Part shown: positions 11,030 through 26,185 of the stretch, one piece after another
Numbering within the stretch: the stretch's first letter is position 1
Layout: each line of letters opens with the position of its first letter
DNA from: a virus
DNA length: 28,182 nt
IMG/VR virus record: IMGVR_UViG_3300038450_000113
Span: 1-28,182 of that record
Reading direction: 5' to 3' (one strand)
Made by a program: the position numbers and the translations under genes
The notes under the pieces: model-generated
What the model was told of the DNA's origin: nothing
What the model saw: only the letters and a program-made list of their open reading frames with translations
Database searches by the model: none

Positions 11030-11030
11030 T

Positions 11031-12770: not shown

Positions 12771-12812
12771 TGTTGGACCCCAGCCACCATTAGTCCCTGC
12801 GGAAGGGAATCC

Positions 12813-13085
12813 ATGCTTGTGGCGAAGGTGGAAGTGTGGCCGGGTGGAATTGCTCAGCGCAGCCAGACGATTGGCGTTATCGAGATCGTGAACATTACCG
12901 GGTCGGCTCCGGTTTCCAACTATTTTGTAACTCTTGCCAAGAAGAATCCCGACACGGGCGAGGAAACCATCGTCAAGCAGGGGACGGTCTATGGATTTCC
13001 CCGTAACAAGAGGGACACTTTTGAGCTAATATCGTTAGCGCTGCAGAGTTGTTTAGGAACTCCAGAAGATGCAAAAGTGGGTTGA
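12813..13085 (+). CDS. Hypothetical protein, 90 aa
   Basis: Preceded by GGAAGGGAA at normal distance. Beta-rich sequence (VEVWPGGIAQRSQTIGVIEI, with a central AKKNPDTGEET loop) and a helical end. Resembles small conserved phage proteins of unknown function. Its 3' end overlaps the next gene by 17 bases. Confidence 0.65.
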   Translation: MLVAKVEVWPGGIAQRSQTIGVIEIVNITGSAPVSNYFVTLAKKNPDTGEETIVKQGTVYGFPRNKRDTFELISLALQSCLGTPEDAKVG

Positions 13086-13434
13086 CGAAGTTATTCCCTG
13101 GATACTCCCTAACGGTTGGGTGATTTCCGGAGAGACCGACGACGGCAGATCGTTCGTGAATCGGATGCGGCGGCTTAGCGTAATCGTTAGCGGAGACACA
13201 GAGCAAGACGGCAAGCGATGGATACATTTCTCCGTTGCTTCGCCAGACAGATTGCCGTCGTGGGATACATTAGTGGAGATGAAGGAATTGTTTCTCGGAC
13301 AGGATCGCAAAGCTATCCAGGTGATTCCGCCAAAGTCGGAACATGTAAACATTCATCCCAACTGCTTGCATCTGTTCGTATGTGTCGACAATGACCCTTT
13401 GCCCGATTTCACGCGTGGCGAGGGGCTTCTTTAA
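13069..13434 (+). CDS. Conserved phage protein, 121 aa
   Basis: The ATG at 13069 lies inside the end of the previous gene. The pattern RLPSWDTLVEMKELFLGQDRK, AIQVIPPKSEHVNIHPN and LHLFVCVDNDPLPDF matches a frequent phage family (lPSWxxl...FlG.d..AiQvlPP...yVNihp..lHLw.c) of unknown function. No signal or membrane segment. It is a reasonably confident real gene with unassigned role. Confidence 0.7.
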   Translation: MQKWVDEVIPWILPNGWVISGETDDGRSFVNRMRRLSVIVSGDTEQDGKRWIHFSVASPDRLPSWDTLVEMKELFLGQDRKAIQVIPPKSEHVNIHPNCLHLFVCVDNDPLPDFTRGEGLL

Positions 13435-13445
13435 AAGGAGAGCCG

Positions 13446-13661
13446 ATGGAGAAGGAAGAGGGTGCAAGGATCATATCCTGCCAAGTAAGAGCCAGGAACG
13501 CCACGTTATTCCACGGGAATGTCACGTTTTTCTTTCACGAAGGCGGATCGTTAGTGGGAGATCTGGGTGACGAGACAGTTTTTGTTTACCGGCTTCGCGA
13601 GGGAGAATTTGTGACCTTCAAGCACGAGAAAAACTCCCTAGAGGTACAAATCGATGAGTGA
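13446..13661 (+). CDS. Hypothetical protein, 71 aa
   Basis: AAAAGGAG precedes ATG 13446 by 7 bases. A short beta-rich protein (RNATLFHGNVTFFFHEGGSL) with an acidic end. Not recognised. Overlaps the next gene by 8 bases. Confidence 0.6.
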   Translation: MEKEEGARIISCQVRARNATLFHGNVTFFFHEGGSLVGDLGDETVFVYRLREGEFVTFKHEKNSLEVQIDE

Positions 13662-14070
13662 TGAAGATGGAATCGAGCGGTGGCCATCCTACGCCGAGAC
13701 TCCGGAGCAGTCCCATTCCTGGACTGAGATCGCCTACACGGTGCAACCGCGAGTGATTCCCGGCGTTGGGCTGGTAGCTATCGCAGGGCAGGCCTATGCC
13801 ACTCGCGACGACGGCGCTAGCTACTTCGCGTCCTACGATCTGCCGTTGAATTACCCGGCAGGCTTCGACTGGACAGCGGCGGTGAAGGAGAGGCTGGACA
13901 CCTTTCTGGATAAGGATTGCAGCTGCAGCCGTTTCGGTCCATGCGCCTTGCATACGATGAAATCGGATGAGTGGTCGAAGCAGGATACGCAGCGGAATCG
14001 AATCGTCGAGGCAGATATTCCCGGTCCACTCAAGAAGCTCCTAGTACAAAGTTCTGTGAGGTTGAGTTAG
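13654..14070 (+). CDS. Hypothetical protein, 138 aa
   Basis: Start overlaps the previous gene, with AGAGG upstream. An acidic N-terminus is followed by a mixed region and CSCSRFGPCALH near residue 89-100, a Cys cluster that may bind metal. Ends immediately before the endolysin gene (TAG then ATG). Unknown function. Confidence 0.6.
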   Translation: MSDEDGIERWPSYAETPEQSHSWTEIAYTVQPRVIPGVGLVAIAGQAYATRDDGASYFASYDLPLNYPAGFDWTAAVKERLDTFLDKDCSCSRFGPCALHTMKSDEWSKQDTQRNRIVEADIPGPLKKLLVQSSVRLS

Positions 14071-14613
14071 ATGGCTACCTTCGAAGCAGCATTGCCGGTC
14101 ATTCACGAGCACGAGGGCGGGAAGGGGAAACTCCCCGGAGATCCTGGAGGAGAAACCAACTTCGGAGTTAGTTCGGCCCTTTGTAAGTCTATCGGGAAAC
14201 CGTTACCGCAAACCAGAGAAGAGGCAGACGAGATCTTCCGCGAGGTTTTCTGGAGCCCGCTCTTCAATAAGATCGTCAACCAAACTTTTGCAACGAAGTT
14301 GGTAGACGACTGCATCAACCAGGGGATCGACGAAGCGGTAACCATACTACAGGAATCGATGTGTTCCGTTGGAAGTATTGTCGCCGTAGATGGTAAGTTC
14401 GGAACAGCTACGCTAACCGGATTGAATTATATCCCGGAGACAAAGTTACTCAACCCATGGAGACAGCGGCAATATCGAAGCTATAGCGATTGGATCGGCA
14501 AGAACCCGGCAGAGAGGGAGGGTCTACGATTCGGTCTGGCGCGCAGGGCAGCGTGGCCATCGCAGGACGATTCGATTGCGCAATTGCTAATCAAGCACCT
14601 TCCGGGGAGTTAG
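14071..14613 (+). CDS. Endolysin, GH108 N-acetylmuramidase-like, 180 aa
   Basis: Residues 12-33 read HEHEGGKGKLPGDP then GGETNFGVS, the signature of GH108 muramidases (hEGG...D.GG.TnfGIs), with Glu15 as catalytic acid. These enzymes cut the beta-1,4 bond between MurNAc and GlcNAc in peptidoglycan at the end of infection. The second half (VDGKFGTATLTGL, then WRQRQYRSYSDWI) fits the family's C-terminal peptidoglycan-binding domain. No signal peptide, so export would need a holin. GAGG lies upstream of the ATG that follows directly after the previous stop. Confidence 0.85.
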   Translation: MATFEAALPVIHEHEGGKGKLPGDPGGETNFGVSSALCKSIGKPLPQTREEADEIFREVFWSPLFNKIVNQTFATKLVDDCINQGIDEAVTILQESMCSVGSIVAVDGKFGTATLTGLNYIPETKLLNPWRQRQYRSYSDWIGKNPAEREGLRFGLARRAAWPSQDDSIAQLLIKHLPGS

Positions 14614-14615
14614 AT

Positions 14616-15179
14616 ATGGCAAGGAAGACAGTAGACTTGGCCGAAAAGGATATCCAGGAGCTTGCGCCAGCCTATCCATGGACTCTTATTCGCTTCCTTG
14701 GCGAAGGGTCGGAGAAAAAAGAAAACGCCTGTTTCTTCACTGGATGGAAGGGCGACATTCAAGGAGTACAGCTCGCCTTGCTTTTGCCGCCTGCCACTAT
14801 CGAATATTCCTTGTCGGATATTTCCTATGTAGCGCAGTGGATCTATTGGACGAGAAACGAACAGGGATATAGCATCGCACTCTACGTCAATCTTCCCGGC
14901 ATGGAGTCGGGAGAGATCCTGGCCGGACAGACGTTGAATATCGGGAAGGAACGAATCCACGTAGGAGACTCGCAAACGAAGGTCGATCGCCTTGTTGCGC
15001 TTGGATACCGGAGGCTGCAAGAGTTGATTGCGGCCAGGACAAAGAAAACATCCGAGGCGCAATCGGCGCCCCCCGAAGATCCTGTTCTGAAACAAGAAAG
15101 TGCGGCGGAACCGGAAAAACAAAAAGTCTACGATCCGGAAGAGCCGACAAAGTACGATAGACCGGATTACTATTTTTAG
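14616..15179 (+). CDS. Hypothetical protein, 187 aa
   Basis: ATG 14616 begins two bases after the endolysin stop, with GGGGAG upstream. The first about 135 residues look like a mixed alpha/beta domain; the last 45 are a Pro/Glu/Lys-rich disordered tail ending in a YDRPDYYF motif. No membrane segment is seen, so it is not a clear holin or spanin. Unknown role. Confidence 0.6.
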   Translation: MARKTVDLAEKDIQELAPAYPWTLIRFLGEGSEKKENACFFTGWKGDIQGVQLALLLPPATIEYSLSDISYVAQWIYWTRNEQGYSIALYVNLPGMESGEILAGQTLNIGKERIHVGDSQTKVDRLVALGYRRLQELIAARTKKTSEAQSAPPEDPVLKQESAAEPEKQKVYDPEEPTKYDRPDYYF

Positions 15180-15181
15180 CC

Positions 15182-15397
15182 ATGGCATTTCCAAAGACAT
15201 CCGACGATTTGAAAGCAATGGGGTACGTCTTCATCGACGACGCCGAATGCAAGGGTTGCGGCGAAGCGATTGAATGGTATCGCACCCCGAAAGGTAAGAG
15301 CATCCCGATAAATCCAATGGGCCGTGGGAGCGACAAGGCCATACCTCATTGGACGACCTGCACGGAAGCAGATTTTTTCCACAAGAAGAAGATCTAA
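15182..15397 (+). CDS. Small zinc-binding phage protein, 71 aa
   Basis: CKGCGEAIEWYRTPKGK (23-39), IPINPMG (41-47) and HWTTC (56-60) match a frequent phage protein pattern (CxGCGxxIxWxxTPxGKxxPhxPM...HWxTC) with a likely zinc site of three Cys and one His. Function unknown. The stop shares one base with the next ATG. Confidence 0.7.
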   Translation: MAFPKTSDDLKAMGYVFIDDAECKGCGEAIEWYRTPKGKSIPINPMGRGSDKAIPHWTTCTEADFFHKKKI

Positions 15398-15561
15398 TGA
15401 AATACCGTAGAGTCGAGCAACGAGAAACGATGTGGAGGAAGCGCCGTTCGGGATGCAGCGTCTTCCTTAAAAAGCTTGCCAGTAGAGCGATGCGGAGAGC
15501 TGCAAAGCAAGACCCGGAGAGTGCTCCTGTTAAGCCGAGATATCAAGGTTACGAACATTGA
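15397..15561 (+). CDS. Small basic protein, 54 aa
   Basis: Coupled start (TAATG). Arg/Lys-rich in the first 35 residues (MWRKRRSGCSVFLKKLASRA), which would fit nucleic acid binding; the tail is polar. No known family. Real but functionally blank. Confidence 0.5.
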   Translation: MKYRRVEQRETMWRKRRSGCSVFLKKLASRAMRRAAKQDPESAPVKPRYQGYEH

Positions 15562-15572
15562 AAGGAAGAACA

Positions 15573-15773
15573 ATGCTACCGGAACTTAATCCTATTATGG
15601 CTCCCGATGCGTACTGCTCCATGTGCGGGGAGAAGATGACGGTAACCCAGGAGAAGGGGCCAAATGGAAAGCTGCATCAGATTGTGTATACCTGCAGCAA
15701 TGAAAAGACGGGTTGCAGTTACCAGATTCATCACGATCAACGACTTACCGGCATGGCGACAAGAGTGAAATAG
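15573..15773 (+). CDS. Zinc-ribbon protein, 66 aa
   Basis: ATG 15573 follows AAAGGAAG; a TTG at 15558 is the alternative. CSMCGEKM (15-22) and C41/C48 around SNEKTG form a classic zinc ribbon, with HH at 53-54. Such ribbons commonly bind nucleic acid or RNA polymerase. It is two genes upstream of the late promoter, so a regulatory role is possible but unproven. Confidence 0.65.
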   Translation: MLPELNPIMAPDAYCSMCGEKMTVTQEKGPNGKLHQIVYTCSNEKTGCSYQIHHDQRLTGMATRVK

Positions 15774-15774
15774 A

Positions 15775-16287
15775 ATGTCGAACTTCGATCAACTCCTTGT
15801 GGGCGGGATCATGGGAGCTTGTATCCTGGCCTTGAGCTTTCTTATCTACTGGAGCGCCAAATGGATTGTGGCGACCAATAAACAATTGCAGTTGGTTGTT
15901 TCCGGGATGGATCGATTAGCGAATGTATTCGAAGGAGCTGCGCAGATATCGTCGTCGATGACGTCCATGGTCCAGGTGAACCGGCGACTGATAACGTCGA
16001 CAGAGTCGATGGCGGCGGCGGTCAAGACATTCACGGCGCTGGTAGTGCAGGCGCCGACCGAACATCCGGAAACGGCCTTCGCTGTTCGCGGTGGGCCTCT
16101 ACCGGCGCCGCCGAACTTCTACGAGGAAGACTATGCTAAGCCAGAAGATGCCGGACTGTTATCGCAAAGCGATAGCGACTTGGCAAAGCTGGACTTAGAG
16201 AATGAGTTGAGGGCGCAGGGGATCGAGACGTCGCCGGACAAGATCCCGCTTCCCGACCCCTCTCAGGTGAACTATGTAGAGAGCTGA
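15775..16287 (+). CDS. Membrane-anchored coiled-coil-like protein, 170 aa
   Basis: One hydrophobic span at about residues 9-31 (GGIMGACILALSFLIYW) is followed by an Ala/Ser/Thr-rich helical region (about 40-95), then a Pro-rich and acidic soluble tail. Topology is probably N-out with a cytoplasmic tail, or the reverse. It is the last gene before the late promoter and sits downstream of the endolysin, so a holin or lysis-accessory role is a reasonable guess, no more. Confidence 0.6.
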   Translation: MSNFDQLLVGGIMGACILALSFLIYWSAKWIVATNKQLQLVVSGMDRLANVFEGAAQISSSMTSMVQVNRRLITSTESMAAAVKTFTALVVQAPTEHPETAFAVRGGPLPAPPNFYEEDYAKPEDAGLLSQSDSDLAKLDLENELRAQGIETSPDKIPLPDPSQVNYVES

Positions 16288-16289
16288 TG

Positions 16290-16378
16290 GAGCGGCGGCT
16301 TCGCCGCCGCAGCTGGAGGGTAGCGACGCCTTCGGCGTCCGAGCAAGAAGCAGCGAGGGCTTCGCCCTCCTAGCTAAA
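16290..16378 (+). repeat. Covarying hairpin repeats, cluster A (3 copies)
   Basis: Three hairpins about 30-31 bases apart: GCGGCGGC/GCCGCCGC around 16300; GACGCC/GGCGTC around 16331; GAGGGC/GCCCTC around 16361. All have TTC loops. Each starts with AGC and ends with 3 bases plus GC(T/A). Stem sequences differ while remaining paired, so the structure rather than the sequence is kept. The cluster begins a few bases after the stop codon at 16287 and precedes the late promoter. Confidence 0.8.
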
Positions 16379-16384
16379 GACTTG

Positions 16385-16413
16385 TTGACAGCCGAGTTGG
16401 CTGGCTCCAGGAT
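16385..16413 (+). promoter_or_regulatory. Late promoter A, upstream of TerS
   Basis: TTGACA (perfect -35) at 16385-16390, a 17-base spacer and CAGGAT at 16408-16413 (weak -10). The same -35 and spacer occur at 22356-22384, and the following leader is similar without gaps for 38 bases. Initiation is predicted near 16420. Confidence 0.6.
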
Positions 16414-16419
16414 AAATAC

Positions 16420-16514
16420 GAACGAGCACCGAATCTAAACTGCGGTCGAAAGACGAAACCGCTCAGTGCAGATTGGCTCACGGAGAAATTCTCTCCGTGG
16501 GCCTTTTTCTTTTT
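16420..16514 (+). ncRNA. Structured leader or small RNA, copy A
   Basis: Predicted transcript of about 95 nt from promoter A to the terminator. It contains GAGCACCGAATC, a hairpin GCGGTCG/CGA-ACCGC (about 16442-16462), and possible AATCT/AGATT pairing around it. The block aligns with the second unit at 22391-22478. It may be a stable small RNA, or a cis antitermination/leader element acting on the terminator at its end. Start site is inferred, not seen. Confidence 0.5.
16475..16514 (+). terminator. Intrinsic terminator of leader A
   Basis: GGCTCACGGAGA (16475-16486) pairs with TCTCCGTGGGCC (16492-16503) with one G-T, loop AATTC, followed by TTTTTCTTTTT. A strong canonical terminator placed between the promoter and the first late gene, so genes downstream need read-through or antitermination. 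Confidence 0.85.
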
Positions 16515-16524
16515 GGACGGAAGA

Positions 16525-17130
16525 ATGCCACGAACCAAAGCCAGCCCGAAAACGTCGACGCTTGCGCAGACACAGGCGCGCCACTACATGCGCTATCTGC
16601 GCAAGGATATGGGCGAGAAGGTCGAAGAGATCGCTCAGTCGGAAGGCGTCAGCATAAAGGCTATCGAGAAATCCATCCGGCAGGTTTCGATGGAACGCGC
16701 TGTTCATACTCAGCAAAACCTGAGCACGGCCGTGATCTCGATGCTGATGGGAAACATGCGCGGCGTGGATCAGGCCTTTAAGAAAGGGCTAAAGGCGCAG
16801 AACTTCCTGGAGCGCAAGAATGCGGACGGAAGCAACCAGTTTGTTCCCGTAGACGATACGGAGACGCAGTTGAAAACGCTGCAGGTGTACGGCAAGTTTC
16901 TGGAGGCGATGCAGCCCAAAGGCAGCGGCATCAGCGTAAGCGTACAGCAGAATAACGCGAACCAAGCCAACCAGACGAATATGCGCAACGGCGGTTACGA
17001 AAGCATGCTGCGCTCCGTGCTCGATAAAGTACACGCCCATAACGAACTACCCAGAGAGACGGCAGACGTCATCGAAGCGGAAAAGGAAGACGACAGCAGC
17101 GACGAGGATGAAGGGATGGTGCAGGCGTAA
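16525..17130 (+). CDS. terS: Terminase small subunit, 201 aa
   Basis: Directly upstream of TerL with a one-base overlap. Residues 33-54 (VEEIAQSEGVSIKAIEKSIRQV) form a helix-turn-helix typical of DNA-recognising small terminase subunits. A helical oligomerisation region follows, then a Gln/Asn-rich segment (VQQNNANQANQTN) and an acidic C-terminus that could contact TerL. TerS selects the packaging site on concatemeric DNA. ATG 16525 is preferred to the TTG at 16513, which lies in the terminator T-run. GGACGGAAG is a modest ribosome site. Confidence 0.8.
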   Translation: MPRTKASPKTSTLAQTQARHYMRYLRKDMGEKVEEIAQSEGVSIKAIEKSIRQVSMERAVHTQQNLSTAVISMLMGNMRGVDQAFKKGLKAQNFLERKNADGSNQFVPVDDTETQLKTLQVYGKFLEAMQPKGSGISVSVQQNNANQANQTNMRNGGYESMLRSVLDKVHAHNELPRETADVIEAEKEDDSSDEDEGMVQA

Positions 17131-19265
17131 TGGACATTATCCGCGCCAATCCTCACTTGAACGAGTTCATCGAAATGATGGACGAGTATTACATTGCCGT
17201 GCAAGGCAACACGTATCTCGCCTGGGAAAAGCTGGGCACAACCGAGAAGGATTTTATCGCGGGAGAGATCCTGCACTGCGTCACCGATCCCCGCTATTAC
17301 CTGGAAAACTACCACATCATCCGAACCGAGCACCAAGGGTTGAAGACGCTTTCTCCTTTCTGGGATTCGCAGGAAATCTTCTATGAAGCCGTGATCGAAC
17401 TGAAGACTGCCGGAGGGCAAGTCAAGATCATGATTTTGAAGGCCCGCCAGCTGGGCCTGTCGACGATCTGCGAAGGCATGGTCTTCTGGAAGACGCTCTT
17501 CACCCCAACGTGCAACACGCTGATCGTCGCTACGGACACGATGAAGGCCGACGACCAGTTCGAGATGTCCCGACTGGCGTACGACTGCTTGCCCTGGTGG
17601 ATGCGCCCCGAAGTCCGCTACGACCAGAAGGGGCGCGTGCTGCAGTTCGACCGCAAGGACGACCTGATGCGCAAGATGAGTCCCGGCATGCGCTCGAACA
17701 TCTTTGTCGAAGCAGCGAACAAAGATACCGGCGTCGCTCGCGGGAAGACGATCCGCTGCTGCCACATGAGCGAGCTGGCTACGTGGGATAACGGCGAAGC
17801 CCTGACGCAGCAGATCTTCCCGACGATGAATGCTCCGGACGTGATGGCCTTCATGGAGTCCACGGCCGAAGGGCGCAGCGGCTTCTGGTATCGTTTCTGG
17901 CGCGACACGGTCGACGGCAAGACGACCTGGCACCCTGTCTTCATTCCTTTCTATCGCGTGCGCAAGTATTCCTTGCCGATCAAGAAGGGCGAGACCTTCA
18001 TCGCCACGGCAGACGAAGAGGAGTACCGGAAGAAGATCCTGGAAGATTCCGCGTTCAACATCAGCGACGAAGTCTTGAATTGGCGCCGCATAAAAGCTGC
18101 GGAATTCGTATCGCTCGAAGGCGACGAATTCGGATTCATGCAGGAATATCCATCGAACTGGATGGAGGCCTTCCAAGGCTCCGGCGTGTGCGCCTTCAAT
18201 CGGCGTCTCCTCTATAAATTGCTGGCGACAACGTGCGTCGCGCCCCGGTTTGTCGGAGAAATCAATTACGACCGGGATGCGCGCAAAGAGCGAGTGGCGT
18301 TGCACCCAGTCAACAAGGGAGAGATCCTCCACAATCCCAAGACAGAAGACCGCTTCTGGGTCTGGGAAAAGCCAGAGGAGGAGGCCACCTATTACGTATC
18401 TGGAGATGTTGCACAAGGCGTCGAGGGCGGCGACTTCAGCTGCATCGAAGTGCTGAAGATCGGCGCAGGCATGGAGCCCGATGTTCAGGTAGCGGAGTGG
18501 CGCGGCTGGATCAATCCGACGCCCTTCGCCTACATTGTTTGCGCCGTCGCCACTTACTACAACATGGCGCAGGTGGCGGTCGAATGCAACAACGTCGGCA
18601 AGGTCACGAATAACGAGATCTTCCGGGTCATCGAGTACGACAACATCTATCGGTGGAAGCATCTCGACAAGGTCAAGAACTTCATGACCGATTTCATGGG
18701 GTGGGAGACGAACTGGAAATCCCGCGACGCGATCATCGCCAAGATGAACGAGGCGCTGCTGGAGCGCTCCATCGTCCTGCGCAGCGAATTGCTGATCGAC
18801 GAGATGATGGATTTCGCCTTCGACGAAAACGGAGAGGGCAAGGCGAAGGGCCGCGCTACAAAAGACGACCGCGTCATGGCCATGATGATCTGCCGTTACT
18901 GCGCGCATGAGTCCGACTATGGGAAGGCGGCGCTAGCCAGGCCGATGAACTCTTCCTCGGCTGGAAATTCCACATGGTACGTCCTCGATAAGTTCAACCG
19001 GAAGATCGGGGAATACAAAGAGCGGGCCGTCGCCTACGCGGAATTCCAGAAGTATCCAGGCGGCTCGATTATGGCGGCGCCGCAGGCTACGGATCACTTC
19101 AACACGATCTACTCGCCGATCTACAACAGCAGCGGCATTCGTAGCCGTATGTATTACGACCTCGGCTATACGCCGGAATCGATCAATCACGAAACGGTAA
19201 CGCTGGAGCAGATAGCGGAGGAGCCTCCGGATATCAGCGATCCGAATGCATGGCTGCAATTTTAG
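17130..19265 (+). CDS. terL: Terminase large subunit, 711 aa
   Basis: Motor ATPase and nuclease that pumps DNA into the prohead. Walker A-like KARQLGLST at 104-112; Walker B-type IRCCHMSE at about 208-215; coupling motif ESTAEG at 243-248. The RNase H-like nuclease domain begins with SGDVAQGVEGGDFS (Asp426, Asp435), with further acidic positions near Glu485 and KDDRV (579-582). The length is above the usual 450-650 aa, with extra C-terminal residues after about 600. The start ATG shares a base with the TerS stop. The TAG stop is also the first triplet of a hairpin repeat. Confidence 0.95.
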   Translation: MDIIRANPHLNEFIEMMDEYYIAVQGNTYLAWEKLGTTEKDFIAGEILHCVTDPRYYLENYHIIRTEHQGLKTLSPFWDSQEIFYEAVIELKTAGGQVKIMILKARQLGLSTICEGMVFWKTLFTPTCNTLIVATDTMKADDQFEMSRLAYDCLPWWMRPEVRYDQKGRVLQFDRKDDLMRKMSPGMRSNIFVEAANKDTGVARGKTIRCCHMSELATWDNGEALTQQIFPTMNAPDVMAFMESTAEGRSGFWYRFWRDTVDGKTTWHPVFIPFYRVRKYSLPIKKGETFIATADEEEYRKKILEDSAFNISDEVLNWRRIKAAEFVSLEGDEFGFMQEYPSNWMEAFQGSGVCAFNRRLLYKLLATTCVAPRFVGEINYDRDARKERVALHPVNKGEILHNPKTEDRFWVWEKPEEEATYYVSGDVAQGVEGGDFSCIEVLKIGAGMEPDVQVAEWRGWINPTPFAYIVCAVATYYNMAQVAVECNNVGKVTNNEIFRVIEYDNIYRWKHLDKVKNFMTDFMGWETNWKSRDAIIAKMNEALLERSIVLRSELLIDEMMDFAFDENGEGKAKGRATKDDRVMAMMICRYCAHESDYGKAALARPMNSSSAGNSTWYVLDKFNRKIGEYKERAVAYAEFQKYPGGSIMAAPQATDHFNTIYSPIYNSSGIRSRMYYDLGYTPESINHETVTLEQIAEEPPDISDPNAWLQF

Positions 19266-19350
19266 CGGCGCGGAGCGCCGCTGCTGGGAAGTAGCGAGCG
19301 GCTGCGCCGCTCCGAGCGAAAGACAGCGACGACCTGGCGGCCGTCCGAGC
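19263..19350 (+). repeat. Covarying hairpin repeats, cluster B (3 copies)
   Basis: Hairpins: GCGGCGC/GCGCCGC around 19272 (loop GGA); GAGCGGC/GCCGCTC around 19303 (loop TGC); and a degenerate GACG...CGTC around 19336. The TAG stop of TerL (19263-19265) forms the first bases of the first copy. Flanks (YAGC before, CGAGC after) match cluster A. The last hairpin ends 14 bases before the next ATG. Confidence 0.8.
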
Positions 19351-19363
19351 GGGAGGAAGTTCG

Positions 19364-19585
19364 ATGGCAGAGTCAACAACCGACAGGAGCGCATCGGCGA
19401 CGTTGATGGGCGCGCTCGAAGAGGTCGAGGATGCGCAGGATTGCCTGATCATCTTCGTGAATAAGGATGGGTCGATCTCCTGGCACACGACGACGACGGC
19501 CGACCATCGGAAGCTCGGCATGGTGGAGTTTGTCGCCGCCGTGATTAAAGGGCGAATTGCAAGAGAGGGAATAGGAAATGCCTAG
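19364..19585 (+). CDS. Small conserved phage protein, 73 aa
   Basis: GGGAGGAAG precedes ATG 19364. Sequence AESTTDRSASATLMGALEEV, DAQDCLIIFVNKDGSISWHT and KLGMVEFVAAVIKGRI follows the pattern of a small protein often found near terminase genes in phages (helix, two strands, helix). Unknown role. Overlaps the next gene by 8 bases. Confidence 0.65.
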   Translation: MAESTTDRSASATLMGALEEVEDAQDCLIIFVNKDGSISWHTTTTADHRKLGMVEFVAAVIKGRIAREGIGNA

Positions 19586-20210
19586 AGTGAGAGCAGGTCT
19601 GGCGTGTCCACTATGCGACATAGTGGGAGTTACGTCGGAACTATACGCAGAAGTACCGGGGATGAAAGTCTCCTGTGAAACGGGAAACGATGCACACACC
19701 TGGAATGACATGTACGAGCTACGTGAGCTAAGGCCGCGAATGCTGAAGGTTGCGCCGAAGCCCAACATCGTTCAGCAGAACTACACGAAATTCGAAGTCG
19801 GCGTGCCGGAGAATACGCGCAAAGCGTTGGAGGCAAAGTATGGAGACAAGCTGGTTCCCAGTATCTCCAGTATCTTGCAGGCCTGCGCCGAGCCGGAGAT
19901 GCTGATCGTCTCCAGTTCCGACATCGAGAGGATCGGGCAGCGGCTGGGCAAGAAACCGGAGAGCTCCTCCGAGTTATTTGGGATGATCTTCCAACTCGGC
20001 GAGGAGATCAAAGATCTCCGCTTTCAGAAAGAGCAGCTGGAAAAGCAGGTGGGCGCCGGGAAAGCGACGGGATCGGTGCAAGGCGTCGGCGTCGACCTGG
20101 GTGCATGGACGATGAAGGCCATGATCAAAGCCAACGAAAATTCCGTTTCACTAGAGGACTTTCTTAGCAAGTATCTGCAGGACGCACTTGAGAACGACTG
20201 GATAAGCTAG
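19578..20210 (+). CDS. Hypothetical protein with N-terminal zinc-like motif, 210 aa
   Basis: Starts inside the previous gene end. CPLC at 10-13 and a CETGNDAHTW segment (about 33-42) suggest a small zinc-ribbon start. It is followed by a long soluble region with a coiled-coil-like stretch (ELGEEIKDLRFQKEQLEKQV-like, about 145-165) and an acidic C-terminal helix. It lies between TerL and portal, where head-associated proteins are common. Not recognised. Confidence 0.6.
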   Translation: MPRVRAGLACPLCDIVGVTSELYAEVPGMKVSCETGNDAHTWNDMYELRELRPRMLKVAPKPNIVQQNYTKFEVGVPENTRKALEAKYGDKLVPSISSILQACAEPEMLIVSSSDIERIGQRLGKKPESSSELFGMIFQLGEEIKDLRFQKEQLEKQVGAGKATGSVQGVGVDLGAWTMKAMIKANENSVSLEDFLSKYLQDALENDWIS

Positions 20211-22039
20211 TGTCTTCAATACTCACAGAATCGGAGATCCATTCCTCTGCCGGAGCAGCGCAGGGAGGAACGACGACGCCTACCACGTCGGACTACTCTG
20301 CGCAGATCCGTCAATTCTGCAACTCGGCCTACGAAGAAGCTAAGCGCAACAACGAAGATGCCGAGGAGATGAAACAGATGAACACGTATCTGGATTATCT
20401 CTCGGGCATGCAGTGGAAGGGACAGGTTCCGGCTCATCGCGCTAAGCCGGTGACGAACCGGATGCGCCGATTGTTCTGGGAGACGGTCGGGCTGCTGACG
20501 GATATCCGGCCGATTTTCGAAGTGCATGCCATCGATAAGACAGAGATCTATTCCCGCACCCAGGACATATTGAATCGAATCACGCGGGCCTGGGCTCTGA
20601 TGACGAACTTCGACGTAAAGCTAAGCATGGTCACGATGTACGCCATGCTCAGCACGGGATACGCAAAGATCGAGTGGGACCCCTTTGCGGATAGCGGAAG
20701 AGGCGATATCGTGATTCTCCCGGTATCGCCCTTGTCGCTGCTGCAGCTGGGCGCGGACAACGACATCCAAGAAGCAGAACTGGTGATCTATCGGCGAGTG
20801 GTCACGCTCGAATTTCTGCGGCGCAAGTATCCTCTGACCGGCTATGCGGTGCAGCCGGATGCGAACTATTCCAAGTTCGAGATGAACTCCAGCGCCCCGG
20901 CGCACATATCGCCGCAACTCTTTATGAGCCTTTCTCCAGGGATGCGCAGAAAGATCGGGCAAGCAGCCGAACAAACATTCAGCGTCTTCCCCAAGGCGGA
21001 GTTAAGGGAATTCTGGCTGCGCGATTCCACGGTAAATAAATCCAACAAGCCGGTTCTGGTAGGGAAGAAAGACACCAACTGGTGTTACGAAGTTCAGCCG
21101 AATCAGCCGCTCTATCCGCGAGGGCGGGTGATCGTCATGGCGAACAACGTGATCCTGGACGACCAGCCGAATCCTTATTGGCATGGGAGATATCCGTTCG
21201 CGATGTTGCGATTGCAGGCTGTGCCATGGCAATTCCATGGAGAGAGCGTCATCAAGCCATGGATGAGCATGCAGGACGTGATCAACCAGATCATCGGCGG
21301 CGTGCTGAACATGGTCAAGCTGGCGGTAAGCCCGCCGCTGCTGGCGCCGAAGAATGCTTTCAGTCCGGAGGCATGGAAGGGGCTGGACATGTCACGGCCG
21401 AACGAGAAGGCGCAATACAGCGCGAACTCTCCACATCGACCGGAGTTCCGGCCGCCGCCCAATGTCCCGGCCTACGTGCTGCAACTTAACTCGATTGTTT
21501 CTCAGGAAATGGACATGTCGTCCGGCGCGTCGGCGGTCGCCGACGCAGCGCGGAAAAAACAGATTCCCAGTGGAGACTCGCTGGAGCAGCTGCAAAATGC
21601 GCGCAATACGCCGATCCGCATGATGGGCCGAAGCATCGAGGGATTCATCGGCGATTTGGGAATGCTTTTCATTCCCTGCGTGCTACAGTTCTATACCGCA
21701 GAAAGAAGGGTTGAGCTGCTGGGAAGTCAGGGAATGACGCCCGCAGATTTCGACGCCAGTCCGGGAACCCTGGTTCCTGCCGGGATGGAACCCGAAGCCT
21801 ATGCACGTAAGTTTAAATTCAAGATCGAACGCGGATCGCTCCTCAGCACGCAAAGGATGGAACGAGTTAACTATGCCATGAAGCTTTACATGGCAAAGGC
21901 GATGTCGCTACGGGAACTTTATCGCATCCTCGACATCAATGTGGATGTAGATCGCATGATACAAGAGATGCTAGAGGAAGCTAAACTGAGAGCTGTGGTT
22001 TCGCCAACACCAGCTAAAGGGCAGAAGAAGGCAGGATAA
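20210..22039 (+). CDS. Portal protein, 609 aa
   Basis: Follows TerL and precedes the scaffold-like protein and MCP, the canonical portal position. The GTG start shares a base with the previous stop. The fold hints are as expected: an N-terminal helical region, a mixed alpha/beta wing region (RGDIVILPVSPLSLL and later), a clip/stem region (WHGRYPFAMLRLQAVPWQ, then SVIKPWMSMQDVINQIIGG) and a helical C-terminus. Portals form a twelve-subunit ring at one vertex through which DNA passes. The 609-aa length fits the larger podovirus-like portals. The ribosome site is weak, so coupling is likely. Confidence 0.85.
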   Translation: MSSILTESEIHSSAGAAQGGTTTPTTSDYSAQIRQFCNSAYEEAKRNNEDAEEMKQMNTYLDYLSGMQWKGQVPAHRAKPVTNRMRRLFWETVGLLTDIRPIFEVHAIDKTEIYSRTQDILNRITRAWALMTNFDVKLSMVTMYAMLSTGYAKIEWDPFADSGRGDIVILPVSPLSLLQLGADNDIQEAELVIYRRVVTLEFLRRKYPLTGYAVQPDANYSKFEMNSSAPAHISPQLFMSLSPGMRRKIGQAAEQTFSVFPKAELREFWLRDSTVNKSNKPVLVGKKDTNWCYEVQPNQPLYPRGRVIVMANNVILDDQPNPYWHGRYPFAMLRLQAVPWQFHGESVIKPWMSMQDVINQIIGGVLNMVKLAVSPPLLAPKNAFSPEAWKGLDMSRPNEKAQYSANSPHRPEFRPPPNVPAYVLQLNSIVSQEMDMSSGASAVADAARKKQIPSGDSLEQLQNARNTPIRMMGRSIEGFIGDLGMLFIPCVLQFYTAERRVELLGSQGMTPADFDASPGTLVPAGMEPEAYARKFKFKIERGSLLSTQRMERVNYAMKLYMAKAMSLRELYRILDINVDVDRMIQEMLEEAKLRAVVSPTPAKGQKKAG

Positions 22040-22044
22040 AAAAT

Positions 22045-22248
22045 ATGGCGACGATGGCGCAGAGACGTGACGTGGTGAACGTGAAAGTCCAGTACGGTTC
22101 TGGAGATGTCGATCTCGAACTTCCGCTGGAGCTGGTAAAAGCGATGGTCGACTTCCGTTCCAATAAGGACAGCGGACGGATCGAAATGCATTATTCGCAG
22201 GGGGGCGTGGCGAAGATATTTGCGAACGTGGCGAGGACGTATAAGTAG
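22045..22248 (+). CDS. Small conserved protein, 67 aa
   Basis: AGGATAA precedes ATG 22045, just after the portal stop. A basic N-terminal half and a beta-rich middle (VKVQYGSGDVDLELPLELV), ending RTYK. No recognised family. Its TAG stop is the first triplet of hairpin cluster C. Confidence 0.55.
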   Translation: MATMAQRRDVVNVKVQYGSGDVDLELPLELVKAMVDFRSNKDSGRIEMHYSQGGVAKIFANVARTYK

Positions 22249-22325
22249 CGAGCGGCTTCGCCGCTCCAAGCTAAGGGCCGGTCAGCTAAAAAGCGGTCAG
22301 CGAGGGCTTCGCCCTCCAAGCAAAA
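22246..22325 (+). repeat. Covarying hairpin repeats, cluster C (2 copies)
   Basis: GAGCGGC/GCCGCTC (22250-22266) and GAGGGC/GCCCTC (22302-22316), both with TTC loops, flanked by AGC before and CAAGC after. The first copy includes the stop TAG of the upstream gene. Between them lies GGTCAGC twice (22280 and 22295). Confidence 0.8.
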
Positions 22326-22355
22326 GCAAGAAACGGAACAAAATTTGTTTAGGAC

Positions 22356-22384
22356 TTGACATTTGTTGCGAATGACATAAGTAT
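22356..22384 (+). promoter_or_regulatory. Late promoter B inside the head operon
   Basis: TTGACA at 22356-22361, a 17-base spacer and AAGTAT at 22379-22384. The leader downstream aligns with that of promoter A from the -10 onward with no gaps. A dyad AACAAA-A-TTTGTT lies immediately upstream and may be an operator or UP element; ATTTGTT is repeated between the boxes. Confidence 0.55.
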
Positions 22385-22390
22385 CTAAGT

Positions 22391-22478
22391 CGACGGGCAA
22401 AGAATCCGACCTCCGGCGAGTCCGGTCAGCGAAGTTTAGCCCCCACAGAGTTAACAGCTCTGTGGGGGCTTTTTCTTT
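22391..22478 (+). ncRNA. Structured leader or small RNA, copy B
   Basis: Predicted transcript of about 88 nt from promoter B. It has GGGCAAAGAATCCGACCTCCGG, in pieces GGGCAAAGAATC and CCTCCGG, matching copy A at the same distance from the promoter, a CCGG-CGAGT-CCGG hairpin (22413-22425), then GTCAGCG and the terminator. The unit is homologous to 16420-16514. Confidence 0.5.
22438..22478 (+). terminator. Intrinsic terminator of leader B
   Basis: AGCCCCCACAGAG (22438-22450) pairs with CTCTGTGGGGGCT (22458-22470) over 13 perfect bases, loop TTAACAG, then TTTTTCTTT. Very strong. Like terminator A, it separates a promoter from the genes downstream. Confidence 0.9.
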
Positions 22479-22603
22479 GCCGCAGTAGTGATTCCTCCAA
22501 TAGTTGTTGCGGTGGAGGCCGCGAGGGGCGAAGTACCTCAAACAAGGCTACTCGCGCACTCAATAAAACCCCGCCAGGGAAACCTGGAGAAAAGGAGGCA
22601 GCT

Positions 22604-22663
22604 ATGTTCGGTGAGACTTTTGTCGCGAACCGTCGTAAGCATGGTCGTAAAACCAAGCGGTAA
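22604..22663 (+). CDS. Very short basic peptide, 19 aa
   Basis: AAAAGGAGG stands 6 bases before the ATG, among the best ribosome sites of the window, and the frame gives MFGETFVANRR then KHGRKTKR and a stop. Basic, with a likely nucleic-acid-binding tail, similar in feel to the Lys/Arg-rich ends of the small proteins at 26745 and 27107. It sits between terminator B and the next gene. Confidence 0.5.
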   Translation: MFGETFVANRRKHGRKTKR

Positions 22664-22693
22664 GCAGTGATTGTCTGGAGACAGACTAACCAA

Positions 22694-22726
22694 GAGGGGT
22701 GAAGGCGCGCAGGTTTTCACCCCCTT
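22694..22726 (+). terminator. Hairpin with short T-run, weak terminator
   Basis: GGGGTGAA (22694-22701) pairs with TTCACCCC (22714-22721), loop of 12, followed by CCTTTATC. The T-run is poor, so this is probably a partial terminator or attenuator between the 19-aa peptide gene and the next. Confidence 0.4.
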
Positions 22727-22754
22727 TATCCAAAGAGCGATTGGAGTCGATGCA

Positions 22755-22946
22755 ATGTCTTCCGTGAAGAAAAAGACTGACCCCGGATACGAGAACCACG
22801 GGGAGAATTCGCAGCCACCCAGCGTTCGCAAAGGGAAGTTCGAGGCTGTGGGCACTTACATGGACGCAGGCGCCATGACCAGCACCTTTCCGAAGGCGAC
22901 CTCGCCGAACGTCAAAACAGGGACCAGCTCGGGCATGGAGCAGTAA
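22755..22946 (+). CDS. Hypothetical protein, 63 aa
   Basis: ATG 22755 (MSSVKKKTDP) has GGAG 8 bases upstream and is preferred to the longer frame from 22671, which crosses the hairpin at 22694. A polar, low-hydrophobicity sequence rich in Lys, Gly, Pro, Ser and Thr suggests disorder. In head operons such short disordered proteins can be minor structural components. Unrecognised. Confidence 0.5.
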   Translation: MSSVKKKTDPGYENHGENSQPPSVRKGKFEAVGTYMDAGAMTSTFPKATSPNVKTGTSSGMEQ

Positions 22947-22955
22947 GAGATAACG

Positions 22956-23309
22956 ATGGCTACTCGTCCAATGGCGATGGAGAGGCCTCCGGTTTCTCCA
23001 GACATACAAGCGCAACTCGGCGGTGGCGGCGGCGGTGGAGAGACTCCGTTCGCGGGCGTCGGCGGCATGATGGCGCAACGCGACGCGGCGGGTAACCCGC
23101 TGAAGAATGCCTACGATGGGGTGGAAAAAGTTCTGACAAACATGGTCAGGATGAACAACAAGATGGGGCCATATGTGCAGAGGGCCATCGCCATCTTAAA
23201 GGCAGGCATGGAAGAAGCCGGAGGGCAGAAGCCCGAAGGCCAGACACAAGGCAGAGAGAATGCCGGAGCGGTTCCTCAGGGAGCGTCTGCCGGTAACATG
23301 CCTGGATAA
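22956..23309 (+). CDS. Hypothetical Gly-rich protein, 117 aa
   Basis: AGAGATAA precedes ATG 22956. Contains a run of seven Gly residues (about 23-29), then a helical middle (NAYDGVEKVLTNMVRMNNKM, KMGPYVQRAIAILKAGM) and a polar tail. The order portal, small genes, scaffold, capsid makes a head-assembly role plausible. Not recognised. Confidence 0.6.
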   Translation: MATRPMAMERPPVSPDIQAQLGGGGGGGETPFAGVGGMMAQRDAAGNPLKNAYDGVEKVLTNMVRMNNKMGPYVQRAIAILKAGMEEAGGQKPEGQTQGRENAGAVPQGASAGNMPG

Positions 23310-23393
23310 GTAACGAGTCGATAGCTAATTTGCACTCCGCAGCTTTGCCCAGCCCAGGCAGTAGATGGGAAGCGAAGAAGGAGAGAGGGAAAG

Positions 23394-24314
23394 ATGGCTG
23401 AAATCACAGGTTTGACGGCTGACGATCTGGCCGAACTTCTTCCGCATATGGCGAAAGAAGATGCAGCGGTCTTTGAAAACATACTGAAGCGAAACGGCGA
23501 CTTCAATAAGAAGCTTGCGGAGCGCGGCTTGCGGCAATCGGACTACGACCGTTACATGAACAAAACAAAAGGCGACGTAGACAAGGCGACGAAGCGAGCG
23601 AAAGAACTTGAGGACTGGTACACGGAGAACAAGCCCATTCACGACCGGGCTTTGGAGCATGCGCAGGAGCTGGAGAAGCAGGCAAACGAACTGCAGAAAC
23701 AGCTGGAAGAAGCGAAGGTGCAACGTGTAGCCGAGGGAGGAGATCAAGTGGACGCCGCTGAGTTGGAACGCCGTGTAAAAGAGACGATCGCCGGGTTGGG
23801 ATATGTTTCCAAGACCGAGATCGGCGAGATCATCAAGACGCATAAGTCGGAGATGGCTTTGGAAGAAGCACAGAAGTATGTGCAGGACGCCAACAAGAAG
23901 TATTACGAGGAGACGTTGCCTGCCACGACGAACTTTATCGCCGACGTCACGGAGCTGGTGATGGATCATAAGGCGGAATTCGGCGGGAACTTAAACCGCC
24001 AGGAGTTTGCCGATTTTATGCGAGAGCGCAATTTGGTCGATCCGAAGAAGGCTTACGAAGAGTATGTCCGACCGAAGCGCCAGGAGAAGGAATTGGAGAC
24101 CAAGGTCGAAGAGCGCATGAAGGTAAGAGAAGCCGAACTTCGCCAACAGTTTTCCGGACAGGCTTTAAACGGTGGCACTCCTTCGAGCGGCTTTGCCCCG
24201 AAGGGCGCCTTGCAAATGAAGATTGAGAAGGACAACGCCGAGAAGCAGGCAGCGGGAAGCGGCGTACTTGCCGCGCAGGCCGCCGCCGAGCTTCGGGCTG
24301 AAAACAAGTTTTAG
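23394..24314 (+). CDS. Scaffold-like protein, 306 aa
   Basis: Lies directly upstream of the major capsid gene, where the scaffold is normally encoded. It is rich in Glu, Lys, Gln and Ala with extended coiled-coil runs (EHAQELEKQANELQKQLEEA, and later VKETIAGLGYVS). A C-terminal Ala/Lys-rich helix (KDNAEKQAAGSGVLAAQAAA) could bind the capsid protein, as scaffold C-termini do. Scaffolds guide the coat into a prohead and then leave or are cleaved. AAGGAGAGAGG is an excellent ribosome site. Its TAG stop is followed by CGGCGC, as in the hairpin repeats. Confidence 0.75.
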   Translation: MAEITGLTADDLAELLPHMAKEDAAVFENILKRNGDFNKKLAERGLRQSDYDRYMNKTKGDVDKATKRAKELEDWYTENKPIHDRALEHAQELEKQANELQKQLEEAKVQRVAEGGDQVDAAELERRVKETIAGLGYVSKTEIGEIIKTHKSEMALEEAQKYVQDANKKYYEETLPATTNFIADVTELVMDHKAEFGGNLNRQEFADFMRERNLVDPKKAYEEYVRPKRQEKELETKVEERMKVREAELRQQFSGQALNGGTPSSGFAPKGALQMKIEKDNAEKQAAGSGVLAAQAAAELRAENKF

Positions 24315-24550
24315 CGGCGCAAGTTTTATGGGGCCTTCGGGCTCCACCAGTTCGATCTGCACCAGAGGGAAGGAGCCCGGCTCCGCAGCCTGAAGGCGAC
24401 AGAGATATCCAGTCAGCAAGAAGTCCAGGAATCGGACTTTGGTTCGGTTCCTCTTGGGACGCAGCTTGCGGCTGAGGAACGCGATATATCTCTGCCCTAT
24501 CTAGGGCTGAAAGGGAATGCCACGGATAGTTGGGTGGCAATAACGGAGCT
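24315..24550 (+). other. Capsid-gene leader region without genes
   Basis: A 236-base gap before the capsid ATG. It contains a hairpin GGGGCC-TTCG-GGCTCC (24330-24345, one G-T), GGAGCC/GGCTCC inverted repeats, the three-helix element 24400-24494, a small GCCCT/AGGGC hairpin (24494-24507) and a TGCCAC/GTGGCA hairpin (24518-24539) ending just before the CGGAG ribosome site. Confidence 0.7.
24400..24494 (+). ncRNA. Candidate three-helix RNA in the capsid leader
   Basis: CAGAGATAT (24400-24408) pairs with ATATCTCTG (24486-24494) and encloses two hairpins: AAGTCC/GGACTT (24421-24439) and GTTCCTC/GAGGAAC (24447-24480), the latter with an inner CGCA-GCT-TGCG. The result is a closed three-way-junction-like layout. 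It could be a regulatory leader of capsid translation or a structural signal for mRNA processing. No known RNA family is recognised. Confidence 0.5.
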
Positions 24551-25510
24551 ATGTTAACTTACGACGATGTAAGTTCAAAAACAAATAAGTTCATCATTCC
24601 GGGGCTGATCGACGAAGTTTACAAGTCCTCGCCTGTGTTGACGCGGTTGCGGACGCGAAATATGGAGCGGTTCGATGGTGGTCTGACCATCCGTCAACCG
24701 ATCATGTATGCGGCCCTGAAGGGTGGTCCCTTCGCACGCGGCTCTTCTTTCGACACCAGCTACGTCCAGACCGATACCGCACTCGAAGTCAACGTCAAGT
24801 ATTACTATGTCAACGCGACTCTGTTCGGAACCGACAACGTTCTGAACCGTGGCCCCGAAGCCGCGATGAGTTACGTCGAGTCGAAGATGGTCAACGCTGC
24901 CGGCCGCATGGCGCAGTTGCTGGCTACCGATATGTATCTCGACGGCCAGGGAACCAACAGCCAGCCCATCGCTTTGGATGGAGCCGACGCCGCCATCAAT
25001 ATCCCTGCGAACTACGCAAGTTACGGCGGCATCACCCGTTCCGACATTTCGACGGTAGCGAATACCGGCATCAATGCGTATTACGCAAGCAACGCCGTTT
25101 TCGCCCTTTCTCAGCTGCAGACAGCTTACGGCGCCGCATGGTTCGGCGCGGAGCATGTCGATCTGATCGCCACCACTCAGCCCTTGTGGGACAGCATCTG
25201 GTCGAAGATCCAACCGCAGCAACGTTTCCTCGAAGAGTCGAGCGACGTTGCGAAGGTCGGCTTCCAGTCGCTGCGCTTCAACGGCAGCTCGATTGTCGTC
25301 GATCAGTATTGCCCAACCGGCAAGATCTGGGGACTTAACACTGCCTACATCCAGTTCTGGATTTCGACACTGCCATTGTTCCAATTCGGATTCACGGGTT
25401 GGAAGGAAGCGCAGAACTCCATCGATGTCTGCGGACAGTACGCCTTTGGCGGGAACCTTCTGTTTGTCGCGCCACGCTTGTTCTTCCAACTTGCTGGGTA
25501 CACGAGCTAA
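24551..25510 (+). CDS. Major capsid protein, 319 aa
   Basis: Follows the scaffold-like gene and has the composition of a coat protein: balanced, rich in Gly, Ala, Tyr, Phe and Asn with few charges. An N-arm-like region (MLTYDDVSSKTNKFIIPGL), a long helix region (VESKMVNAAGRMAQLLATD) and a C-terminal strand block (CPTGKIWGLNTAYIQFWIST) fit the HK97 fold, although no single signature proves it. Many copies build the shell. ATG 24551 has CGGAG before it and is preferred to the GTG at 24530. A 7-bp hairpin lies in codons 2-9. Confidence 0.85.
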   Translation: MLTYDDVSSKTNKFIIPGLIDEVYKSSPVLTRLRTRNMERFDGGLTIRQPIMYAALKGGPFARGSSFDTSYVQTDTALEVNVKYYYVNATLFGTDNVLNRGPEAAMSYVESKMVNAAGRMAQLLATDMYLDGQGTNSQPIALDGADAAINIPANYASYGGITRSDISTVANTGINAYYASNAVFALSQLQTAYGAAWFGAEHVDLIATTQPLWDSIWSKIQPQQRFLEESSDVAKVGFQSLRFNGSSIVVDQYCPTGKIWGLNTAYIQFWISTLPLFQFGFTGWKEAQNSIDVCGQYAFGGNLLFVAPRLFFQLAGYTS

Positions 25511-25537
25511 GCGAGCGGAGAGGAGAGGAGAAAAAAT

Positions 25538-26176
25538 ATGGCACAGTTCGGAGCTTCAATTCAAACCGCTCAAGTTACTTCGGGTAATTTCCAGACCACA
25601 GTTGACCCTTCGGTCAGCGGGTATGCAGGTTACCCAAACAATCCCGGCAACCGCAATCCGCTGGGGGCTGCATATTACGACTCCACCGGCACCTTTTCAA
25701 ATCCTTGGGGAGTACCGGGAAAGTACCGCTACGTGCAGTATGTCGATGCAGGGAACACGGCGATTACACTGCTGACCGCGCCTGCGATCTGTTATTGGGT
25801 AGACGCAACCTTTACATCAGTCACCCCGCTTTATAGCGCCTCAGGATGGGGGATTAACGGCGTCGCCGGACTTATCATGCCGAATACGACCGCCATCCCG
25901 AATCTGGTGCTATCCGGCGCCACGTCGGTTCAAACCAATCTGAATAACAACTTCATCTGGATCTGTGTTGGTGGTTACGTAAGCGGAGCACTCGCTACCT
26001 CTCCGACAGGATCGATTACAGCTGGAGCCGCGATCATTGGTTCTACGACAGCATTCGAATCTGCTTTCGTAACAGCGAATACTGCGCCGACCAATCGTGT
26101 ACTCGGATGGGCAGTGACAGCGACAGGGACACCTTCGACCGGCTTGTACAACATCCTGGTCACGCTGGAGAGCTAA
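25538..26176 (+). CDS. Probable capsid decoration or head protein, 212 aa
   Basis: Immediately after the capsid gene, preceded by GGAGAGGAG. Low in charge, rich in Gly, Ser, Thr and Asn with hydrophobic strands (GALATSPTGSITAGAAIIGS), the look of a beta-rich surface protein. Its first 80 residues include NPGNRNPLGAAYYDSTG. Head-decoration or head-fibre proteins occupy this position in many phages. The family is not identified, so the function is positional inference. Confidence 0.6.
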   Translation: MAQFGASIQTAQVTSGNFQTTVDPSVSGYAGYPNNPGNRNPLGAAYYDSTGTFSNPWGVPGKYRYVQYVDAGNTAITLLTAPAICYWVDATFTSVTPLYSASGWGINGVAGLIMPNTTAIPNLVLSGATSVQTNLNNNFIWICVGGYVSGALATSPTGSITAGAAIIGSTTAFESAFVTANTAPTNRVLGWAVTATGTPSTGLYNILVTLES

Positions 26177-26185
26177 GGAGACGCG

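Follow-up and report, generated by a model that had tools for sequence, protein, structure and literature searches.

Two candidate transcription attenuators ahead of the terminase–portal and capsid genes of an uncultured phage

Introduction

Leader RNAs in which antiterminator and terminator are mutually exclusive are a known kind of control element. The RAT (ribonucleic antiterminator) of the BglG, LicT, and SacY systems is a hairpin with asymmetric internal loops that overlaps the 5′ arm of the terminator, and the operons concerned are sugar operons. In ANTAR RNAs, there are two hairpins whose loops are hexanucleotides. In the systems of AmiR, NasR, and EutV, the second hairpin overlaps the terminator and is stabilized by a protein, and in LicT and ANTAR leaders alike the formed antiterminator leaves a terminator that is shortened and off the U-tract (PMC3369936). 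Here, we describe two promoter–leader–terminator units in the virus record IMGVR_UViG_3300038450_000113, which was analyzed whole as a window of 28,182 bases. Unit 1 (16385–16514) faces a TerS-like gene, TerL, and the portal gene, and unit 2 (22356–22478) faces a tiny ORF (open reading frame), further small ORFs, a scaffold-like gene, and the capsid gene. Each unit is probably a transcription attenuator whose predicted antiterminator and terminator exclude one another, controlling the terminase–portal and capsid operons, respectively. Both resemble the RAT in that a hairpin with asymmetric internal loops overlaps the terminator 5′ arm, a likeness in the shape of predicted folds only, and differ in that phage terminase and capsid operons take the place of sugar operons. 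What would be new is the use of such a switch as a conserved gate ahead of phage capsid genes, of which we found no description in the open-licence literature.

Among phages, lambda tR′ is not known to have an RNA antiterminator overlapping its terminator. Lambda Q at pR′–tR′ and AlpA at PalpB–tB resemble the present locus in that a terminator separates the promoter from the genes. In both, however, the protein site lies in promoter DNA, whereas here the part that is alike is the RNA leader; Q proteins need a binding element in the late promoter and a −10-like pause sequence, and the AlpA element lies between −10 and −35 (PMC9371919). The put RNAs of HK022 are likewise short cis-acting leader RNAs found as two related copies in a phage. 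They are described as two stem–loops (PMC9378689), with overlap of a terminator arm absent from that description, and the comparison sets a published description against a predicted structure. Our comparison of antitermination systems drew on PMC9378689, PMC3369936, PMC9371919, and PMC2864571.

Results

Two homologous units precede the late genes

A first-pass annotation had placed two homologous promoter, leader, and terminator units ahead of the late genes, and both are present at 16385–16514 and 22356–22478 (+ strand, as for their parts, the genes behind them, and the leader stretch behind unit 2 given below). The predicted promoter of unit 1 (16385–16413) comprises TTGACA (16385–16390), a 17-base spacer, and CAGGAT (16408–16413), giving an expected start site near 16420. 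That of unit 2 (22356–22384) comprises TTGACA, a 17-base spacer, and AAGTAT (22379–22384), with a start expected near 22391. The −35 boxes are identical (6/6), and two of the four TTGACA on the + strand of the window belong to these units. The spacers had been called identical, which holds for their length and not for their sequence (5/17 bases). After the spacer, 24 matches in 38 bases had been reported; our recount gives 22/38, an identity reached in 4.5e-5 of 200,000 trials with random 38-mer pairs from the window. By block, identity is 4/6 in the −10, 1/8 in the following 8 bases, and 12/17 in the leader block. The leader motif ACGxGCAxxGAATC noted earlier was borne out, its core ACG.GC...GAATC occurring at just two sites in the window, one in each unit. 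Since the block that is alike is the transcribed leader and not the promoter spacer, the units point to a LicT/RAT-like rather than a lambda Q-like way of working.

The −10 hexamers are a weak point of the promoter prediction, each matching TATAAT at 3/6 positions, which is why the unit promoters are missing from the list of our sigma-70 scan. Across 23 homologous units with −35 boxes picked by eye, a plausible −10 (A at position 2, T at position 6, at least 3/6 matches, spacing 16–18) is present in 16, compared with 3.8 expected, and none of 2000 shuffles reached 16.

Both units end in a strong intrinsic terminator, as had been proposed. The unit 1 terminator (16475–16514) has its stem at 16475–16503, followed by TTTTTCTTTTT, with a predicted energy of −22.0 kcal/mol; that of unit 2 (22438–22478) has its stem at 22438–22470 and reaches −28.4 kcal/mol. 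The two T-tracts are alike (TTTTTCTTT), and both terminators are among the top three by stem pairs in 10000–28182, the third being at 26680–26714. The hairpin said to stand at the same distance in each unit is stable in unit 1 and weaker in unit 2. As the annotation also stated, the terminators sit between promoter and genes; if transcription ended there, each unit would release an RNA of roughly 77 to 106 nt. In many relatives (L022, L027, L030, L047, and L089 among them), a GGAG and a start codon follow directly on the T-tract, so that gene needs read-through. Moreover, the sigma-70 scan, which also misses the units' own weak promoters, lists no + strand promoter match between unit 2 and the capsid gene. 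Together, these observations suggest that the downstream genes require read-through of the units' terminators.

The leader pairs with the terminator arm

When each transcript was folded only up to the 5′ arm of its terminator, the leader paired with the first bases of that arm in a helix termed P1. In unit 1, the P1 5′ strand GAGC (16424–16427), the leader side of the antiterminator, lies within the block ACGAGCACCGAATC and pairs with GCTC (16476–16479), which doubles as the base of the terminator 5′ arm; P1 encloses an irregular hairpin, AATCT...AGATT (16432–16474). Likewise, in unit 2, GGGC (22395–22398), within ACGGGCAAAGAATC, pairs with GCCC (22439–22442) at the base of the terminator 5′ arm, and the inner hairpin region (22399–22438) is predicted to hold a CCGG/CCGG stem and an AAA/TTT extension of P1. 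The same P1 strands appear in P1-enforced folds, and the 5′ strand falls inside the motif ACGxGCAxxGAATC. The lowest-energy fold contains P1 as long as the transcript ends at 16479–16499 in unit 1 or at 22442–22466 in unit 2; beyond that, the terminator wins (P1 state versus terminator, −27.3 versus −35.7 kcal/mol in unit 1 and −29.1 versus −39.6 kcal/mol in unit 2). The predicted folds of 20 units, printed together, have a common general shape in which P1, formed by the leader and the first arm bases, encloses an irregular hairpin; in this hairpin a 1×3 internal loop and a GAAA-type loop are frequent. Among phages, P1 varies with both strands changed, as GGC/GCC, GAGC/GCTC, GGGC/GCCC, GGTC/GACC, GGCT/AGCC, and GAGCCG/CGGCTC.

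Statistics were computed on 23 non-redundant units, which are 26 units minus the near-duplicates in L027, L039, and L043; a third unit of the same species (see below) is not among them. At least three leader–arm pairs form in 23/23 truncated-transcript folds, compared with a mean of 16.4 and a maximum of 20/23 for shuffled leaders, and pairing beyond chance is a computed property of the units taken as a set. A leader segment predicted to pair with part of the terminator, to the exclusion of the full terminator, was found in 23/23 units, and in the third unit only with a shifted arm window. Leaders paired with their own arms at 0.69 to 0.71 versus 0.57 to 0.60 when units exchanged arms (swap test, p 8e-5 to 4e-4). 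The difference persisted without two close relatives (21 units, p 3.6e-4) and also without the window's two units (19 units, p 0.001). The swap test placed the beginning of the G+C core by one uniform rule, fixed after A-U extensions were seen to spoil four units. Shuffled leaders paired at 0.49 (p 5e-5), and 17 other terminators of the same loci scored 0.43 (p 3.5e-4 versus the units). No special pairing of the leader with the terminator 3′ arm was seen (p 0.67 to 0.90). In a scan of both strands of the relatives' loci for terminators with a −35-like box, 20 distinct sites scored at least 0.55, of which 16 are these units.

Units in related phages

TerL and portal searches of IMG/VR returned near-identical contigs and at least 75 and at least 73 further loci, respectively, many of which share contigs. 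Both units recur in the near-identical contigs of L003 and L006, and L002 ends within unit 2. In 24 related loci, or 21 once near-duplicates are removed, a unit homologous to unit 2 lies 3′ of the portal gene: 18 from a first scan, L037 and L043 from 26 rescanned loci, L088 by eye, and L098, L109, and L151 from 35 of the best 80 portal loci. TerL identity in these loci is 36 to 52% where listed and reaches 59% in L007; judged by the portal region, L098 is a longer contig sister to L007. The unit stands 3.9 kb (L029) and 5.3 kb (L030) downstream of the portal gene in two of them. In most other rescanned loci, some of them too short to tell, no unit was found, and a group with TerL identity near 38 to 39% (L053, L056, L058, L067, and L071 among them) seems to be without one. 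L072, L078, L079, L085, and L087 keep a promoter-like stretch in which no terminator was recognized. Searching 50,697 phage records at the DNA level with 15600–23500 gave no match, and a scan of genome contigs found no relative. The TerS scan returned five loci, confined to the window's species and to the L007 and L044 contigs, so unit 1 is not traceable in diverged relatives. L007 itself starts at TTCTTTTATG, cut exactly where a unit-1-like terminator would end.

A covariance model, R1, was built from seven units of relatives, none from the window, and contains the inner stem and terminator only. It matched unit 2 (E 0.0016), missed unit 1, and found nothing else in the window at E ≤ 10. Units of L047 (E 4e-6) and L043 (E 0.003) were also matched, those of L022, L027, L030, L034, L050, and L089 weakly (E 0.12 to 8.5), and those of L021, L029, L044, L088, L098, L109, and L151 were not among the matches listed. 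Matches outside units were few, two being the reverse strand of R1's own training units (E 0.0044 and 2.2). Aligning the units with MAFFT did not give a result good enough for a covariance model that includes P1. Because R1 holds the inner stem and terminator only, the claim for P1 rests on the permutation tests. No Rfam family reached its gathering score anywhere in the window, with weak matches only below it, and the units, if read correctly, would make a candidate RNA family that Rfam 15 does not match.

The 79-kb near-identical genome, G002, carries a related third unit ahead of a DUF7873 gene, reading TTGTCA, 16 bases, TATAGT, then ACGAGCACCTACTC and a terminator. ACGAGCACC is common to units 3 and 1 and occurs nowhere else in that genome. 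The leader of unit 3 can pair as ACGAGC with GCTCGT (6 bp), albeit with the upper part of the arm. This unit is present also in a 64.7-kb genome (L174), and DUF7873 was found in 2/16 records, both of the window's species. If the attenuator reading is right, such a unit seems to have been copied ahead of other operons of one phage.

Discussion

A model for the units and the points against it

In the model that we favor, a sigma-70-type promoter would make a short leader that is able to undo the base of the intrinsic terminator. As the terminator 5′ arm emerges, its first bases would pair with the leader segment (GAGC with GCTC in unit 1, GGGC with GCCC in unit 2), and P1 would close a hairpin with asymmetric internal loops. 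In this state, the upper part of the terminator could still fold, yet shorter and away from the U-tract, and polymerase would continue, past unit 1, into TerS–TerL–portal and, past unit 2, into the tiny ORF, scaffold-like, and capsid genes. Were P1 opened, the full terminator would form and the short RNA would be released. Whatever holds P1 would thereby switch the operon on. Read-through is presumably regulated, with the switch as the control point. Since the window's species has two such units and a related third ahead of different genes, we infer that a trans-acting factor, from phage or host, sets P1. If the model is true, an uncultured phage group controls the step from packaging to capsid genes by an RNA fold and not by a promoter-bound Q-type antiterminator, and the units offer a way to the factor behind the timing of capsid production.

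Searches for known factor domains covered 11 phage records. The CAT-domain regulators (CAT_RBD, PF03123) gave 0/11 matches at E 0.001, compared with 4/14 control genomes, a negative for phage-encoded proteins. ANTAR-domain proteins gave 0/11, but no control genome matched either.

Several findings weigh against this model. In stability, the terminator exceeds the P1 state by 8 to 11 kcal/mol, and P1 is just 3 bp long in L037 and L098. Single-unit shuffle tests are significant for few units (w1 0.025, w2 0.04; most >0.1). The swap test weakens with longer duplex windows and is not always significant (p up to 0.22), and an initial test of complementarity, in which the arm was always 8 bases, showed a weaker effect (Fisher p 0.003 and 0.016). 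Some of the 17 comparison terminators score high (0.83, 0.76), and this set was hand-picked, contains two near-identical pairs, and has unchecked promoter status. In the scan of relatives' loci, four non-unit sites (L056, L054 at 18610, L084, and L018) score 0.65 to 0.87, and the list of sites at 0.55 or above lacks unit 3 as well as about ten of the known units. By the uniform rule, unit 3 scores 0.13 to 0.17, rising to 0.81 to 0.83 when the arm window is shifted up. R1 does not detect unit 1, nor does it find the units of L098 and L044, the closest relatives; a genome-level R1 run found nothing in two near-identical genomes, although the direct cmsearch is trusted more. Lastly, unit 1 has no counterpart in L008, L044, and L046, where the matched genes at the pre-TerS site are <40 nt apart, so that unit 1 looks like a local gain.

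Alternative readings

The readings weighed here overlap, and our estimates for them are not meant to add up to certainty. We think it unlikely that the units are plain weak terminators, passed by a constant fraction of polymerases, in which P1 only tunes and nothing regulates. A thermodynamic balance set by sequence would suit such terminators, and no ligand or protein is known, but in many lineages both strands of P1 have changed, and the helix closes an elaborate hairpin, suggesting more than tuning.

The first-pass annotation had likened the locus to lambda pR′–tR′ with Q antitermination. In such a mechanism, a phage protein would join polymerase at the late promoter and make it pass the terminator, and the leader structure would be incidental. 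The order of promoter, short leader, terminator, and late genes is indeed that of pR′–tR′, and AlpA works in a like arrangement (PMC9371919). This likeness did not hold up further, and we regard a Q-type mechanism as quite improbable. With 5/17 spacer bases identical between units 1 and 2, their promoters lack a shared protein site, whereas the leaders are alike (12/17), and the predicted RNA antiterminator overlaps the terminator. The coupling of leader and arm in the swap, shuffle, and other-terminator tests likewise speaks against Q. PF06530 (Phage_antitermQ), the sole Q family sought, matched 0/11 records at E 0.001 and 2/14 control genomes, and other or unknown Q families would escape this search.

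The second suggestion of the annotation, two copies of one small RNA, fares no better, and we consider it just as improbable that the units are small-RNA genes with their own promoters and terminators, whose hairpins are the functional RNA and whose downstream genes are read from elsewhere. Every unit would release a short RNA, and the position of the units is conserved in relatives. On the other hand, many relatives have the Shine–Dalgarno sequence of the next gene right against the T-tract, which makes read-through necessary for that gene; sequences vary widely, the two RNAs of the window differ outside the P1 strand, R1 finds only one of them, and the Rfam search gave only weak matches below the gathering score.

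It is very improbable that the leader hairpin itself, as a put-like RNA, modifies polymerase to pass this and later terminators without a protein. The put RNAs of HK022 offer a precedent in being ~70 nt, cis-acting, and present as two related copies, one just after its promoter, but they are described as two stem–loops (PMC9378689), and the conserved helix here uses the terminator's own arm, which put does not need.

Three further candidates were rejected. A phi29-type packaging RNA is set aside given that the phage has TerL and a TerS-like gene. A trp-type leader peptide is unlikely from the leaders, which are ~48 to 55 nt long: neither of the window's two contains an ATG (unit 1 has a GTG), and ATG occurs in just 6/23. 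Insulation from upstream transcription would put the promoter 3′ of the terminator.

A broader proposal is that the units are a widespread, undescribed class of phage RNA switch at the portal–capsid border of a large uncultured phage group, timing capsid synthesis via a phage-encoded RNA-binding factor. The window's species would have gained further copies of the switch, one ahead of the terminase genes and an altered one ahead of a third operon, and with them a small RNA-antitermination regulon. The factor in one group could be the tiny arginine/lysine-rich peptide encoded just 3′ of the terminator, and its target the GNRA-like hairpin, by analogy with lambda N and boxB. We rate this proposal as a whole as unlikely.

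Gene neighborhood

The right half of the window runs endolysin, small protein with a hydrophobic start, unit 1, TerS-like gene, TerL, unknown gene, portal, small gene, unit 2, small ORFs, scaffold-like gene, and major capsid protein. The TerS-like gene (16525–17130), the first after unit 1, was called by its position and conserved gene order and has no PHROG or Pfam match. TerL (17130–19265) lies downstream of it, and the portal gene (20210–22039) follows downstream of TerL. The scaffold-like gene was named from position alone and has no family match. Hairpins of the GGCTTCGCC type are repeated at 16291–16370, 19276–19368, and 22250–22310 (the last by eye), in the gaps just upstream of the units and after TerL, and L003 and L006 have a related copy past the window's end. 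The strong terminator at 26680–26714 lies 3′ of the head genes, where no unit-type promoter was seen by eye, and many relatives have terminators at a similar distance from TerL.

Behind unit 2, a second leader stretch (22479–22603) appears conserved in a by-eye comparison of 14 stretches, the window's included, and holds a GCGG–TGGAGG–CCGC hairpin, CAATAAAACCC, and AAAGGAGG. In its equivalents in relatives, also compared by eye, the stem varies, the loop keeps a GGAGG-like purine run, and AATAAAACCC follows; an ACCTC is often found upstream that could pair with this run.

The first ORF with a Shine–Dalgarno sequence after unit 2 is a tiny basic one of 19 amino acids, MFGETFVANRRKHGRKTKR (22604–22663). 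In one group (the window, L036, L037, L039, L044, L046, L051, L052, L054, L072, L073, and, by eye, L098), a tiny, extremely basic ORF of 12 to 24 amino acids follows the unit 2 terminator or its equivalent. Tunturiibacter phage Tunturi_1 (L176) has a lysine-rich tiny ORF not far 3′ of the portal gene, as judged by eye. The candidacy of the tiny basic ORF as the antiterminator is weakened by loci that keep the ORF without a recognized terminator (L072 and, by eye, L078, L079, L085, and L087) and also by relatives with other basic ORFs in its place.

Observations on the near-identical genome G002

Outside the window, G002 encodes a Cas9 of 1067 amino acids (L020:12855–16058, + strand; PADLOC Cas9 4e-77, Pfam HNH_4), with repeat arrays and tracr-like hairpins nearby, as seen by eye. 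This Cas9 reads LGLQINASSIGWA at what we take to be the usual place of the RuvC-I aspartate. G002 also carries a large serine recombinase (L019:18213–19958, − strand) and, elsewhere, RecT and a C5 methylase, and because of these genes the phage may be temperate. An IS66 transposase is present in the same contig as the recombinase.

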